Source of the DNA: Bacteroidota bacterium
GTDB lineage: Bacteria; Bacteroidota; Bacteroidia; UKL13-3
Direction: 5' to 3'
NCBI GenBank assembly: GCA_947477885.1
Contig: CANJUD010000001.1
Span: 1 to 64,000, forward strand
Length of the DNA: 64,000 nucleotides
The position numbers and the translations under genes were made by a program. The notes beneath the pieces were generated by a model. It saw only the letters and a list, made by a program, of their open reading frames with translations. It was not told the DNA's origin and searched no databases. Below, piece after piece: positions 56,338 to 64,000 of the stretch (its first letter is position 1; each line of letters begins with the position of its first letter).

Positions 56338-59300
56338 ATGTCCCAAAAATATTCAACCAATAGCTATCGTTATCTAGCTTGTTTCCTATTTATTATTGTT
56401 GGTTTTTATGCTTCAGCTCAGGGCAATAAAAAATATCAGGGATTATTGTGGGAGATAAGCGGTAACGGTCTTAAGAAGCCCAGCTATGTGTATGGCACCA
56501 TGCATGTGAGTAGTAAAGTTGCCTTTCATTTAGATGATTCTTTCTTTATGGCCATAGAAAATGTAGATGCCGTCGCCCTAGAAATAAATGCCGATAGCTT
56601 TATGGCTGATCTCATGCGCAGCGAAAGAATGGAAGGCCGCGGAGGATATGGAAAAATAGGAACAGTTGGATCAGAAGATTTTTTATTGTATGATAAAAAG
56701 AGTGAACTTTTACATAAAGCGTTGTCCTTAGATCAAAACGTAGTGAACTTCTTGATGTACCGCAGCAGTGGCTATCGCGATAATTTTGAAGAGGATACTT
56801 ATCTAGATTTATATATATATAAAACAGCTAAAAAACTTAAGAAAATCCACTTAGGGGTTGAAAACTGGGAAGAGAGCGAACGCTTGATGAACGAAGCCGC
56901 CAAAGCCCGCAGCGACGAACCCTATGACCCTAAACGTAGCCGTGCGGCAAATAAAATGGACATGGACAAAGAACTTGTTGATGCCTATCGCAAAGGCGAT
57001 CTGGACATGCTCGATTCTATTAACCACATTGAAGACCCCGAAAGCTATTTAGAAAAAGCCATCTATTACCGCAACCGCAATATGGTAACTGCAATGGATT
57101 CTATGTATAAATTAGGAAAATCATTGTTCGCGGCTGTTGGTGCAGCACATTTACCAGGCAAAAAAGGCGTTCTCGAATATTTGCGTGATCGCGGATATAC
57201 TGTGAGAGCAGTGAAGCACGTTGAAAAAAATAGCAAACGCAGAGACCAATTGGACAAGCTCCATCACCCACTTAACTTTATACCCCAGACCGCTACCGAT
57301 GGTTTTTTTAAAGTGGAAGTTCCCGGCAGATTATATGAAACAGGGATGAGGGGGAAAATGCAACTTTATCTGTGTACTAATTTGGTAAACGGGGTGTATT
57401 TTGATATTTCACGTGTGAAGTTATTTGCTCCGTTTATTGGCAATAGCCAAGATTTTGTGATGAAACAAATAGATAGTTTGTTGTTTGAAAATATTCCAGG
57501 AAAAATCATTGAAATGAAAACTATCAAGAAAAATGGATACCCTGGTTATGATATATTAAATCAAACAAAAAAAGGCGATTTTCAACGTTATAATATTATA
57601 GTAACTCCACTTGAAGTGATGATATTTAAAATGGCGGGACCTGATGAGTTTGTAAAGAACAAAGATGGTGATCGTTTTTTCAATTCTATTGAACTTAAAG
57701 AGGCACCCACTGCAACTTGGCAAACTTATACATCCAAAGAACACGGTTTTTCTGTAATGGTTCCACACACACCGCTTAACAATGAAACCAGCGATGAGTT
57801 TCGCTACACCACAGGCAGGCTCGATTATTTAGCAGTAGATAAAAGTACCGACAATGCCTATATGATATTGCAGCACAGTTATAGTAATTTAAGTTATTTG
57901 GAAGAAGACACTTTTGAACTAAACCAGATGATGGACGGCTTCGCCCAAACAGAAAATGTAAAGGAGTTGAATCGTGAAATCATCAAACAAAAAGACCATT
58001 ATGCTGTGAAATCAAAATTTACATTGAACGATAGAAAAGTAGAAGCACTTGCAGTTTTAAAAGGATCTCGTTATTATATATTTGCCCAATCTATTCCCGA
58101 AGGAGGAAGTTTCGATAAAAGATTTATCGAGAGTATAGAATTTGTGAAACCCCAATTTAAGAAACTGGAAGAATATATTGATACTGGCTTGCATTTTACC
58201 GTTACAACACCTTTTAAACCTAAGAAACCAGCAGAGAATAGTTATTCGTATTATAATTCACATAGCAATAAGCAAGGCCCTCAAGAAAGTGAAACAAAAG
58301 TACAATTGTTCACCCCGCCCGAAAGTGAAGAAGCCATAAGGGTAGAGTATTATAGATATGGAAAATATAGCAGCGCAATAGATACAGGTTATTTTAGAAG
58401 ATTGGTAATAAATAATTTGAACGATTCCGATTTATATGTAGTTAAGAAAAGTGAAAAACACGAAAAAGATATACATACCTACGATGTGGTTTATGCAGAT
58501 ACAGCCACTGCGCGCCGACACAAATACAAGTTTGTGCTTAAGGGATCGGTATTATATACTTTGCAATGTATGACAGATAGCACAGAAGGTGAAAGCGAAT
58601 TCGTGACCAACTTTTATAATACATTTAAACCCGCTGATACTACCATAGGTAGACCGCTGTTTGTGAGCAAAGCCGATACACTTATTAAAGATTTGTTTAG
58701 CATGGACAGTGCTACAAAATCGCAAGCGGTAGAATCAATAAAAGATGTATGGTTAACAGATAAAGCATATAAAATGTGGATGGGAGCAATTGATAGTTTT
58801 TATTTCACTAAAAATTATCTGGACCGCAAAGCAGATATGATAGAAGAACTTGGCTATGGGTGGAAAGGTCGCAAACGCGATACGATGGTATTGGATTATC
58901 TAAAAAAAGAATATATAAAAGTGGGAGATACCACCACGTTGCAATTGGCTATCCTTCGCAGTATGACACGATTTATGACTCAGGAATCTTTCAAAACTAT
59001 AAAAAATATATTATTGAGCGAAGCACCTATCCCATCGGGAAGTTATGAGTTGAAAGGTATATTTAATAATGCAGAAGATTCTTTCAAACTGGCACGTCTG
59101 TGGTTTCCTGATCTGGCTAAACTAAATACTATTGAAGAATACAAGTCGGGTATATATGATTTAATGTCGTGGTTGGTGGATAGCAATTATTTAAAACCGT
59201 CAGACTACGCAGCTTATAAAGTACAAATATATAACGATGCACGAATTACTCTGAAACGCTTACAGGCCAAGGAAGAAGGAGGTTCAACCAACAATTCGGA

Positions 59301-59937
59301 ATATGATGATGATTTGGTAAACTATACTTATTTGCTATTACCATTTTATAATGAACCGCAAATAAAAAAATTAATCGACAAACAATTCCAAAGCAAAAAC
59401 AAAGAGTTTAGAATGCGTATTGTAATTGCAATGATTAAAGCAAAAGTACCTGTTGCTGATAGTATTATTATGCAGATTGCAGAAGATGACCAGTTACGCT
59501 ACAAACTATACCAACGTTTGTCGAGAATAAAGCGTTTAGATGTGTTCCCTGCAAAATATAAAACACAAGAAGCTATTGCCCGCTCTATCTTTATGAAAGA
59601 GGCAGTAAGTTCATATAGTTATAGTGGCAGCAGTGAGAACGAAGAAGATAAAAACAAAAAAGACAGTATTGTTTTATTGGATAAAAGGCTCACCACGTTT
59701 AAACATAAAACAGGGTATGTATACTATTATAAAGTACTAAAGAAAGACGATGAGCATAAAGAGTGGTATGTTGGTATCAGCGGCATGCAGCCCGAAGATA
59801 CATCTAAGATTTCGCTCGATGAAAAACTGACAAGTGGAAATACAGAATTGCTGGATGAATCGAAAAAACCTGAAGTTCAATTTGAAGAACTATTATATGA
59901 AATGAAACTAAAACGCCGCAGAGGCCGTGCAGATTAG
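56338..59937 (+). CDS. Large TraB/GumN-domain protein
   Basis: A 1199-residue exported protein; the N-terminal segment (about 10-28) is a signal peptide. Residues about 33-300 form a TraB/GumN domain: LLWEISGNGLKKPSYVYGTM with the GTMH motif, VDAVALEIN, and AVGAAHLPGKKGVLEYLRDRG with the second conserved GxxH. TraB/GumN (Tiki-like) proteins are predicted metalloproteases. The remaining ~900 residues hold three beta-rich units with similar starts (KEHGFSVMVPHTP, LHFTVTTPFKP), then an alpha-helical repeat-like region (about 780-1100). Such a large extension is unusual; typical members are about 280-350 residues. Role unknown. Confidence 0.8.
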   Translation: MSQKYSTNSYRYLACFLFIIVGFYASAQGNKKYQGLLWEISGNGLKKPSYVYGTMHVSSKVAFHLDDSFFMAIENVDAVALEINADSFMADLMRSERMEGRGGYGKIGTVGSEDFLLYDKKSELLHKALSLDQNVVNFLMYRSSGYRDNFEEDTYLDLYIYKTAKKLKKIHLGVENWEESERLMNEAAKARSDEPYDPKRSRAANKMDMDKELVDAYRKGDLDMLDSINHIEDPESYLEKAIYYRNRNMVTAMDSMYKLGKSLFAAVGAAHLPGKKGVLEYLRDRGYTVRAVKHVEKNSKRRDQLDKLHHPLNFIPQTATDGFFKVEVPGRLYETGMRGKMQLYLCTNLVNGVYFDISRVKLFAPFIGNSQDFVMKQIDSLLFENIPGKIIEMKTIKKNGYPGYDILNQTKKGDFQRYNIIVTPLEVMIFKMAGPDEFVKNKDGDRFFNSIELKEAPTATWQTYTSKEHGFSVMVPHTPLNNETSDEFRYTTGRLDYLAVDKSTDNAYMILQHSYSNLSYLEEDTFELNQMMDGFAQTENVKELNREIIKQKDHYAVKSKFTLNDRKVEALAVLKGSRYYIFAQSIPEGGSFDKRFIESIEFVKPQFKKLEEYIDTGLHFTVTTPFKPKKPAENSYSYYNSHSNKQGPQESETKVQLFTPPESEEAIRVEYYRYGKYSSAIDTGYFRRLVINNLNDSDLYVVKKSEKHEKDIHTYDVVYADTATARRHKYKFVLKGSVLYTLQCMTDSTEGESEFVTNFYNTFKPADTTIGRPLFVSKADTLIKDLFSMDSATKSQAVESIKDVWLTDKAYKMWMGAIDSFYFTKNYLDRKADMIEELGYGWKGRKRDTMVLDYLKKEYIKVGDTTTLQLAILRSMTRFMTQESFKTIKNILLSEAPIPSGSYELKGIFNNAEDSFKLARLWFPDLAKLNTIEEYKSGIYDLMSWLVDSNYLKPSDYAAYKVQIYNDARITLKRLQAKEEGGSTNNSEYDDDLVNYTYLLLPFYNEPQIKKLIDKQFQSKNKEFRMRIVIAMIKAKVPVADSIIMQIAEDDQLRYKLYQRLSRIKRLDVFPAKYKTQEAIARSIFMKEAVSSYSYSGSSENEEDKNKKDSIVLLDKRLTTFKHKTGYVYYYKVLKKDDEHKEWYVGISGMQPEDTSKISLDEKLTSGNTELLDESKKPEVQFEELLYEMKLKRRRGRAD

Positions 59938-61015: not shown

Positions 61016-64000
61016 ATGACCGACCACAAACAAGTATTCAATACCTCTTCTAAGCTACGCTGGCGTACATTTCAGTGGGTATCACGATTTGTGGTTTTTG
61101 GATTTATCATGATTATTCCTGTGGTGTGGATTGCTTTGGCAAAAGGATATAAACCTAATCTCCCTACTCTTAAAAGTGATGATCCAGAGAAGAAAAAAGT
61201 GGCCAATCCTGTAAAGCCAATGTCATTTTCTGATAAAGAAATAATAAAATACAAAGGCTTTAACGATTTTCTATCTGCAAAAAATGCCAATAAAGATTTA
61301 GTAGAACTCGAAAAAAAGAAAACGGTTAAACGTAGAATTAGAGCAGGATTTTATGTGGACTGGGACCCCCAGTCATTATATTCATTGCAAGCACATATCG
61401 ACCAAATGAATATGGTACTGCCCGAATGGTTTTTTATCAATCCCAATGCCGATACACTGGCTCCCAGTATAGACCCGGAGGGACTGAAAGTAATGAAGCA
61501 GCATGGGGTGGATATTGTACCCATCATCAATAATATCAACGACAAAAAAGGTGAAGGCGTTTTTGATGGAGCCATGATGCACCGCATTTTCCATAATGAA
61601 AAAAAACGCAAACGATTGATTGATGATATTGTAAAATATTTAAAACTATATGGCCTGCAAGGTATCAATATCGACTTTGAGGAATTGGAAGAAGACGATG
61701 ACCAAACAGTAATTAATTTTCAAAAAGAATTATATGATAAGTTGCATCCACTTGGCTTAACTGTTACTCAGGATGTGATGGCAAATAATGAAGATTTTAA
61801 CTTAAAAGAACTTGCCAAATATAATGATTATTTATTTTTGATGGCTTACGATCAGCATTACTCCACCAGTGTTCCTGGGCCTGTTAGCGAACAACGATGG
61901 ATAGAAAAAGTAACCGACCAAGCAGCAGCTGAAGTTCCTTCAGAAAAAATTATATTATGTATTGCAGGTTATGGTTACGATTGGCCAGACGGTACCGAGG
62001 CTACCACAGTAAGTTATCAGCAAGCGATATCGAATGCAGAAATATATAAAGCAAAAATAAAATTTAATAACGATACTTATAATAGTAGTTACGAGTACAC
62101 GGACGAAAATAAAAAGCACCACAAAGTATATATGGTAGATGCCTTGGGCAATTATAATACTTTGCGTTTTGCCGATGAATATGGAACTGCTGGTACCGCT
62201 ATGTGGAGATTAGGTTCAGAGGATGATAGACTATGGTCTTTCTACCAAAGAAATTTAGATAATAATGATTTAAAAGTAGCTCCTTTTGATTATAAATTGT
62301 TAAACGTTTTTACCTCACGCACACAAAAACCAAACTATGTGGGCGATGGCGAAATATTAGATGTGGTTACCCAACCTCAAATAGGAAAAGTAGCTATAGA
62401 AGTAGATAGTGTGGAGCAAATGATAACGGAGCAATTATACGAGCAGTTCCCTACCAGTTATGTGATTCGTAAATTTGGAAACGTGAAGAATGAAGTAATC
62501 CTCACTTTCGATGATGGGCCCGATGAAAAATATACAACAGAAATTCTAGATATATTAAAACAAGAAAAAGTTCCTGCTACTTTTTTTATTGTGGGTGTAA
62601 ATGCAGAAAGCAATTTGGATGTATTAAAAAGAATATATAATGAAGGGCATGAGATAGGGAATCATACATTCACACACCCCAATATTGCTCACATAAGTTT
62701 GGAAAGAGCCTATACCGAAATGGAAGCCACACGTTTGCTGATAGAAGCTGCTACAGGGCGTAGCACAATATTGTTTCGTGCACCATTTAATGCCGATGCT
62801 GAACCTACCCGGCCCGAAGAACTTTTACCCGTAGCCCTCAGTCGTCAAAATAATTATTATACCATCGGCGAAAGTATCGACCCGCAGGACTGGAGAATAG
62901 ATGCAACTGCAGATTCTGTATATGAAAAAACGATAAGAGAATACGAAGAGAATCCAGCCAAAGGTATCATATTACTGCATGATGCAGGAGGTAACCGGCA
63001 AGCAACGGTGGATGCATTGCCACGCATTATAAAATATTTTAAAAAGAAAGGTGTGAAATTTATCACCGTTGCGGCATTGCTGCACAAAAGCAAAGACGAG
63101 GTAATGCCTGTGGTAAAAGGCGGTATGCAGGGTTTGGGAAGCGGCGTTGCTAATTTTATATTTTGGTTTGAAAATTTATTATTTGCAGCTTTTTGGGTAG
63201 CCATTACTTTGGGGCTCATTAAAATAGTTTTGATGGCAACTTTGGCAATTTGGCAATATATAAAACGTAGAAAAAACATTTATATATTAAATGAACCTAT
63301 CACTTCAAAAGTAAGTATTATAGTTCCAGCATACAACGAAGAAGTAAATGCCTCAAGAACTATACACAACCTGCTGTTACAAGACTATCCCAATTTTGAT
63401 ATCATATTTGTAGATGATGGTTCATCCGATAAAACATATCACATTATCAAAGATGAATTTGAGACAAATCCACGTGTAAAAGTATATACAAAAACTAATG
63501 TCGGGAAAGCATCTGCTTTAAATTTTGGAATAGCACAAACTACTTCAGAATTTGTAATATGTATAGATGCAGATACGCATTTAAAACCCAATGCCATTAG
63601 TTGTATGATGCCCTATTTTGCTGATGAAAACACAGGTGCAGTAGCAGGGAATGTGAAAGTAGGTAATGAGAGAAATATGCTCACCCGCTGGCAATCGATA
63701 GAATATATAACGGCACAAAACTTTGACCGCAGGGCATTTGATATCTTAAATTGCATTACAGTGGTGCCAGGTGCAATTGGTGCGTTTCGCAAGAAAGCTA
63801 TTGATGAAGCTGGTGGATTTACCACCGATACTTTGGCCGAAGATTGTGATTTAACCATTCGAATTTTACGGAACAATTATCGTATACATAATTGTTCCGA
63901 TGCTATAGCAGTTACTGAAGCTCCTGAAACGTTGAAACAATTTATGAAGCAACGATTCAGATGGTGCTATGGTATTATGCAGAGTTTTTGGAAAAATCGT
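61016..64000 (+). CDS. GH18-polysaccharide deacetylase-GT2 fusion protein (3' partial)
   Basis: The frame is open from ATG 61016 to the window end (995 residues visible). After a membrane helix (about 23-41) comes a GH18 domain (about 106-420) with catalytic E222 in GINIDFEE. Then a NodB/CE4 deacetylase (about 490-700) has D499-D500 in TFDDGP and H550/H554 in GNHTFTHP. Two further helices (about 713-752) lead to a cytoplasmic GT2 domain from 766 with VPAYNEE, DADT (851-854), AEDCDLT and QRFRW (979-983). The layout suggests a membrane synthase whose periplasmic half deacetylates and cuts an amino-sugar polymer as it emerges. E. coli splits similar tasks between PgaC and PgaB. The polymer is unknown. 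Confidence 0.9.
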   Translation, partial: MTDHKQVFNTSSKLRWRTFQWVSRFVVFGFIMIIPVVWIALAKGYKPNLPTLKSDDPEKKKVANPVKPMSFSDKEIIKYKGFNDFLSAKNANKDLVELEKKKTVKRRIRAGFYVDWDPQSLYSLQAHIDQMNMVLPEWFFINPNADTLAPSIDPEGLKVMKQHGVDIVPIINNINDKKGEGVFDGAMMHRIFHNEKKRKRLIDDIVKYLKLYGLQGINIDFEELEEDDDQTVINFQKELYDKLHPLGLTVTQDVMANNEDFNLKELAKYNDYLFLMAYDQHYSTSVPGPVSEQRWIEKVTDQAAAEVPSEKIILCIAGYGYDWPDGTEATTVSYQQAISNAEIYKAKIKFNNDTYNSSYEYTDENKKHHKVYMVDALGNYNTLRFADEYGTAGTAMWRLGSEDDRLWSFYQRNLDNNDLKVAPFDYKLLNVFTSRTQKPNYVGDGEILDVVTQPQIGKVAIEVDSVEQMITEQLYEQFPTSYVIRKFGNVKNEVILTFDDGPDEKYTTEILDILKQEKVPATFFIVGVNAESNLDVLKRIYNEGHEIGNHTFTHPNIAHISLERAYTEMEATRLLIEAATGRSTILFRAPFNADAEPTRPEELLPVALSRQNNYYTIGESIDPQDWRIDATADSVYEKTIREYEENPAKGIILLHDAGGNRQATVDALPRIIKYFKKKGVKFITVAALLHKSKDEVMPVVKGGMQGLGSGVANFIFWFENLLFAAFWVAITLGLIKIVLMATLAIWQYIKRRKNIYILNEPITSKVSIIVPAYNEEVNASRTIHNLLLQDYPNFDIIFVDDGSSDKTYHIIKDEFETNPRVKVYTKTNVGKASALNFGIAQTTSEFVICIDADTHLKPNAISCMMPYFADENTGAVAGNVKVGNERNMLTRWQSIEYITAQNFDRRAFDILNCITVVPGAIGAFRKKAIDEAGGFTTDTLAEDCDLTIRILRNNYRIHNCSDAIAVTEAPETLKQFMKQRFRWCYGIMQSFWKNR

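Follow-up and report, generated by a model that had tools for sequence, protein, structure and literature searches.

The locus and its three-domain gene

The window, positions 1 to 64,000 of a 595 kb Bacteroidota contig, ends inside a gene that joins a GH18 domain, a CE4 polysaccharide deacetylase and a GT2 glycosyltransferase in one chain (Table 1). The frame opens with an ATG at 61016 and exits the window at 64000, residue 995. The full gene occupies positions 61016-64393 of the contig and encodes 1125 amino acids in a single open frame with no internal stops. Its last 130 residues, with the membrane helices at 1001-1104, lie outside the window, as does the next gene. Upstream, positions 56338-59937 of the window encode a protein of 1199 aa whose N-terminal domain is TraB/PrgY/GumN and whose long remaining part is unassigned. 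Beyond the window, a 171-aa open reading frame with an HIHLLW motif (L002:7673-8188) resembles REP-associated transposases and has no Pfam match.

Table 1. Features of the fusion locus; residues are numbered along the 1125-aa product
Feature	Position	Strand	Remarks
GH18-CE4-GT2 fusion gene	61016..64000	+	residues 1-995 of 1125; remainder beyond the window
N-terminal membrane anchor helix, residues 13-42	61052..61141	+	model helix 13-42; hydropathy peak 18-45; N-terminus inside
GH18 TIM barrel, residues 106-419, extracytoplasmic, chitinase/SleL fold	61331..62272	+	PF00704; matches to 5jh8 and SleL 4s3j
GH18 catalytic D220-F-E222 in GINIDFE	61673..61681	+	aligned to IDFE of YdhD (3cz8) and VDFE of 5jh8
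Beta-strand linker between GH18 and CE4, residues 420-489	62273..62482	+	model strands 440-487
CE4 deacetylase, residues 490-690	62483..63085	+	PF01522; five NodB motifs; match to Bc1960 (4l1g)
Membrane helix, residues 705-753, then KRRK (inside)	63128..63274	+	model; hydropathy
Processive GT2 catalytic domain, residues 764-993	63305..63994	+	Pfam; motifs; match to hyaluronan synthase 8snc
Barrel gene	contig 64416-65309 (L002:6417-7310)		outside the window; 22 bp downstream of the fusion

The sequence-only reading of this DNA had proposed one chain with three domains and intact catalytic motifs, and had raised the possibility of a frameshift or an assembly join between the domains. Neither is present. 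The continuous frame recurs in an independent MAG (L033) at 92% identity and in more than 40 further loci, mostly at 46-64% identity, and an artefact is thus ruled out. In one record, that of Niabella defluvii (L053), either sequencing error or decay has split the fusion across several frames.

The domain search of the full gene that had been suggested placed all three domains above their Pfam cut-offs: GH18 (PF00704) at residues 191-400 with 63.5 bits against a cut-off of 29.6, Polysacc_deac_1 (PF01522) at residues 491-592 with 114.9 bits, and Glycos_transf_2 at residues 767-931 with 123.7 bits. The catalytic residues named beforehand were all correctly placed. The CE4 domain carries the five NodB-homology motifs (TFDDG, HTFTH, RAP, DPQDW and LLHD), with D499-D500 and H550/H554 among its residues. 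The GT2 domain carries DDGS, DADT (851-854), E942-D943 and QRFRW (979-983); with DxD, ED and QxxRW motifs and C-terminal membrane helices, it belongs to the processive synthases. E222 of the GH18 domain aligns with the motif glutamate of solved homologues and, judged from these residues, the GH18 of the window looks active.

A structure prediction of the fused chain, likewise suggested, was made with AlphaFold on the L033 protein and 36 aligned relatives. It gave three folded catalytic domains (mean pLDDT 83) with motifs aligned to those of solved homologues; the pTM of 0.59 is middling, so the relative placement of the domains is not trusted. The GH18 barrel matched a chitinase of C. violaceum (5jh8, Z 35.3) and SleL (4s3j, Z 34.8), the CE4 domain matched Bc1960 (4l1g, TM-score 0.84 by target), and residues 721-1106 matched hyaluronan synthase (8snc, Z 32.3). 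The C-terminal helices of the model span residues 1001-1038, 1043-1070 and 1075-1104. GH18 and CE4 lie outside and GT2 inside, as had been claimed: the model helices, the hydropathy profile and the KRRK stretch after the second helix agree on this topology.

Distribution, conservation and gene neighbourhoods

The survey across Bacteroidota that the sequence-only reading had recommended found the fusion, nearly always at full length, in 22 of 395 evenly drawn genomes and in 12 of 171 genera. Chitinophagaceae and related MAGs contain 23 loci with close relatives (51-92% identity). In the window's own family, only 3 of 64 genomes carry the fusion. Pollutibacter soli and Thermoflavifilum thermophilum are among the harmless carriers that can be cultivated. 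Records of the plasmid collection hold it in Prevotella nigrescens (46% identity), in Sphingobium, Novosphingobium and Sphingomonas (36%), in Deinococcus (34%) and in Sulfitobacter (33%). In total, 21 such records cover at least 80% of the fusion, and their annotations read only "glycosyltransferase" or similar. The triple fusion therefore spans at least three phyla in this survey, or four if the published case in Acetivibrio (see below) is counted. These matches, together with two published lists, rule out that it is unique to the window. The GT2 tree places the window's copy with copies from Chitinophagaceae-labelled MAGs and with one genome of another family (support 100/99); the copy of G434, another carrier in the window's family, branches elsewhere. 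Because the distribution is patchy, horizontal transfer or repeated loss of the fusion is likely.

The three domains are not equally conserved. Across 42 proteins, mean pairwise identity was 0.63 for GT2, 0.59 for CE4 and 0.44 for GH18. The GT2 motifs and the metal-binding and catalytic residues of CE4 are kept in all 42, and the five CE4 motifs are conserved among the relatives with small variants, such as VVPRDW as the fourth motif in Sulfitobacter. At the position of E222, 39 of the proteins have E, two have D and one has S, and the tyrosine of the GH18 MAYD motif is replaced by I in three. The altered copies belong to Sulfitobacter and to one Bacteroidota genus. That two lineages have lost the GH18 catalytic residue but retain those of CE4 and GT2 is described here for the first time. 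Given these residue changes, hydrolysis looks dispensable in the two lineages, or the GH18 there may be a binding part. In Sulfitobacter dubius, whose fusion has a GH18 without catalytic residues, a gene for a DUF3131 protein follows the fusion (L081:9081-11531).

Downstream of the window's fusion lies a gene that we newly propose as a candidate exporter. Its product has a signal peptide-like start, no Pfam match and, in a model with a pLDDT of 72, the 12 strands of an outer-membrane barrel. The nearest PDB structures were OmpG, KdgM and NanC (Z 13-16); KdgM reached a Z of 14.9, but OmpG and autotransporter barrels score equally against this model. Within the family, the barrel gene was found in G000, G001 and G434 only, which are exactly the carriers of the fusion, and it is adjacent in each: downstream in G000 and G001, and directly upstream in G434, where it overlaps the start region of the fusion. 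The hypergeometric value for this co-occurrence, 2.6e-5, ignores kinship and is overstated, since two of the three genomes share a genus and the evidence amounts to about two independent cases. Because the two fusions do not group as sisters in the GT2 tree, the association of barrel and fusion has probably arisen, or been retained, on more than one occasion. In the rest of the phylum, the barrel has weak relatives that do not adjoin the fusion. Specificity of the barrel family for the fusion outside its own family was rejected, as distant relatives in other families sit in unrelated clusters. The barrel is not a general partner, because the fusion stands alone in most Bacteroidota.

No conserved operon around the fusion was found across Bacteroidota, most copies being alone. 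A second new observation is that MprF-type genes adjoin the fusion, within about 3 kb, in three unrelated lineages (flanks of L079, L082, L083, L084, L085 and L034): in three sphingomonads, in one Bacteroidota genus (two genomes) and in one Ferruginibacter MAG. Since carriers mostly hold one MprF-type gene or none (8/24), chance adjacency would be about 0.4% per copy. At the sphingomonad loci, a gene for an AcvB/VirJ-type hydrolase accompanies MprF, and two of these loci also have a two-component system nearby. Two-component or related signalling genes occur near 16 of 50 loci; such genes are common, and enrichment is not claimed. Downstream of the fusion in Deinococcus sp. KNUC1210 lies a sensor diguanylate cyclase gene (L080:9327-10862), which may hint at a c-di-GMP link. 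The window's genome has no MprF, and MprF is therefore a lead on the role of the fusion in relatives and not a part of the window's machine.

Relation to known polysaccharide systems

The sequence-only reading had compared the fusion with the division of labour between PgaC and PgaB in PNAG export. For the GT2 domain this holds in part. TIGR03937, the PgaC/IcaA equivalog, is its best NCBIfam match, but the score of 201.3 bits stays below the equivalog cut-off of 422.3, and E. coli PgaC reaches 648. The fusion was the best PgaC-like protein in all 20 carriers searched, and the only one at E 1e-30 in the window's genome. Like E. coli PgaABCD, it places the synthase inside and the deacetylase and hydrolase outside, and it has a candidate outer-membrane channel encoded beside it. 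The general resemblance to PNAG systems thus stands, but formal membership of the PgaC and PgaB families does not. The CE4 domain is NodB/PgdA-like and not PgaB-like by sequence comparison (E 3e-32 against NodB, 1e-3 against PgaB), the GH18 is chitinase/SleL-like, and the PgaB-type hydrolase GHL13 (PF14883) is absent from the window's genome. Moreover, the Pga components are separate proteins, PgaB couples its CE4 to GHL13, and the porin PgaA is larger and has TPRs. The NodB-NodC pair similarly unites a GT2 with a NodB-type deacetylase acting on GlcNAc chains, but it is without a GH18. In the TIGR04242/TIGR04243 tests, the fusion scored 96.2 bits against a NodC cut-off of 550 and 99.8 bits against a NodB cut-off of 240.

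A better precedent than PgaBC is MatB of Streptomyces. MatB has a CE4 outside, a transmembrane segment and a GT2 inside, and is needed for PNAG; its GT2 has PgaC as top match and its CE4 has PgdA and NodB (PMC5972031). Together, matA and matB are required for a polymer that is sensitive to dispersin B, bound by F598 and insensitive to chitinase (PMC5972031). The fusion shares the CE4-TM-GT2 order of MatB and of the NCBI family "bifunctional polysaccharide deacetylase/glycosyltransferase family 2 protein", as well as the combination of a PgaC-like GT2 with a NodB/PgdA-like CE4. It differs in that MatB is without a GH18 and is partnered by MatA, whereas the fusion has gained a GH18 and, in the window's genome, is followed by an outer-membrane barrel.

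Direct comparison was made with the CE4-GT2 of the actinobacterium Kocuria, and with MatB by description. Residues 464-1125 of the fusion align end to end with the Kocuria protein (34% identity over 679 columns, E 4e-114). In the GT2 tree, the fusion GT2s and those of two actinobacterial CE4-GT2s share a single clade that excludes PgaC, NodC and BcsA (97/97); the latter three are long branches whose mutual order is not trusted. With its co-linear CE4-TM-GT2 order and a GT2 in the actinobacterial clade, the fusion is of the MatB type, and the actinobacterial CE4-GT2 type is its closest tested relative. A "chitinase" encoded beside the Kocuria CE4-GT2 was rejected as an unfused GH18 partner, with E 0.11 against the fusion GH18 and a Pfam GH18 score below cut-off.

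The triple architecture is already on record. A GH18-CE4-GT2 protein of Acetivibrio cellulolyticus (ZP_09465738) was listed in 2012, without comment in the part of the source consulted (PMC3413522), and a CE4-GH18-GT2 protein of Sphingobacterium multivorum w15 appeared in 2020 in a list that, in the part consulted, likewise gives no comment (PMC7065263). By these listings, both proteins combine the three CAZy families of the fusion in a single chain. The literature search, which covered articles without their supplements, turned up no biochemical work on the triple form, in agreement with the earlier statement that none was known. The architecture is best read as a MatB-type CE4-GT2 with an added GH18.

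Proposed function and its alternatives

The analysis itself establishes the sequence with its motifs, the folds, the topology, the order of the genes and their co-occurrence. The substrate, the polymer, the coupling of the three activities and the role of the barrel are what we infer from the above. The fusion is proposed to be a MatB-type CE4-GT2 synthase and deacetylase with an N-terminal GH18, which would make partly deacetylated poly-GlcNAc for export through the barrel (probability about 0.6). The GT2 would polymerise UDP-GlcNAc in the cytoplasm and thread the chain through its own membrane helices, and the CE4 would strip some of the N-acetyl groups on the periplasmic side. The GH18 would cut the chain in the periplasm, by which its length would be set or stuck chains cleared. 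In the window's genome, the chain would exit via the 12-strand outer-membrane barrel, and the product, a cationic poly-GlcNAc with part of its acetyl groups removed, would serve the cell surface or the matrix. That a GlcNAc polymer is made and deacetylated is the slightly firmer part of this proposal and seems probable by analogy, the role of MatB in PNAG being its best support.

A beta-1,6 (PNAG) linkage, suggested by the same analogy, is put forward tentatively. GH18 enzymes require that the GlcNAc where they cut be acetylated, and their known activity is on beta-1,4 chains; we know of none acting on beta-1,6 PNAG. For this reason PNAG is a poor fit with the GH18, whose family properties suit beta-1,4 substrates better than beta-1,6 ones. 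The product could instead be beta-1,4-linked, as chitin, chitosan or short chito-oligosaccharides, and the protein would then work as a fused NodC, NodB and chitinase, with the GH18 sizing the chain and the CE4 deacetylating it. The CE4 is nearest the beta-1,4-acting NodB/PgdA type, the GH18 fold is nearest chitinase and SleL with its catalytic DxE intact, and the barrel resembles the oligosaccharide porins KdgM and NanC. However, the GT2 score is about twice as high with PgaC/IcaA as with NodC (201 and 96 bits), and MatB, whose CE4 is also NodB/PgdA-like, is tied to beta-1,6 PNAG (PMC5972031); a beta-1,4 product is considered unlikely.

The GH18 and CE4 might also target peptidoglycan and simply be anchored beside the synthase, where they could, for example, make an opening in the wall through which the chain emerges. 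Indeed, the nearest solved GH18 relatives include the spore cortex enzymes SleL and YdhD, and the nearest CE4 is the peptidoglycan GlcNAc deacetylase Bc1960. This is nonetheless improbable in view of MatB, which carries a CE4 of this kind and yet makes PNAG (PMC5972031), and of the two lineages that lost the GH18 catalytic residues yet keep CE4 and GT2.

The MprF neighbours bring to mind HexSDF of C. difficile, in which a glycosyltransferase, a CE4, an MprF-like flippase and a two-component system yield an amino-sugar glycolipid (PMC10128005). By analogy, HexSDF may be a functional parallel to the MprF-flanked fusions, and HexSDF-HexRK shares with the sphingomonad neighbourhoods the glycosyltransferase, CE4, MprF-like and two-component genes, but it differs in its glycolipid product, its transferase type and the lack of a GH18. 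That the fusion itself makes such a glycolipid and not a polymer is, despite this precedent and the MprF genes in three lineages, very improbable given the QxxRW motif and processive-synthase membrane fold of the GT2, the annotation of HexS as a monogalactosyldiacylglycerol synthase, a different type of transferase (PMC10128005), and the window's MprF-free genome.

The proposal of a MatB-type synthase with an added GH18 can be carried further, at a confidence that is low. A single polypeptide might polymerise, partly deacetylate and cut its own chain, releasing cationic GlcNAc oligomers or polymers of controlled size through a 12-strand barrel dedicated to their export, with the GH18 acting on PNAG or on chitosan-like oligomers. 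A role in cationic envelope protection is suggested here because MprF neighbours recur in the relatives. If true, the fusion would offer a compact and testable model for the bacterial control of poly-GlcNAc length and charge. Surveys of PNAG based on pgaABCD or icaADBC would miss it, as it is annotated only as "glycosyltransferase". The barrel and the MprF neighbours are concrete leads on its export and physiological role.
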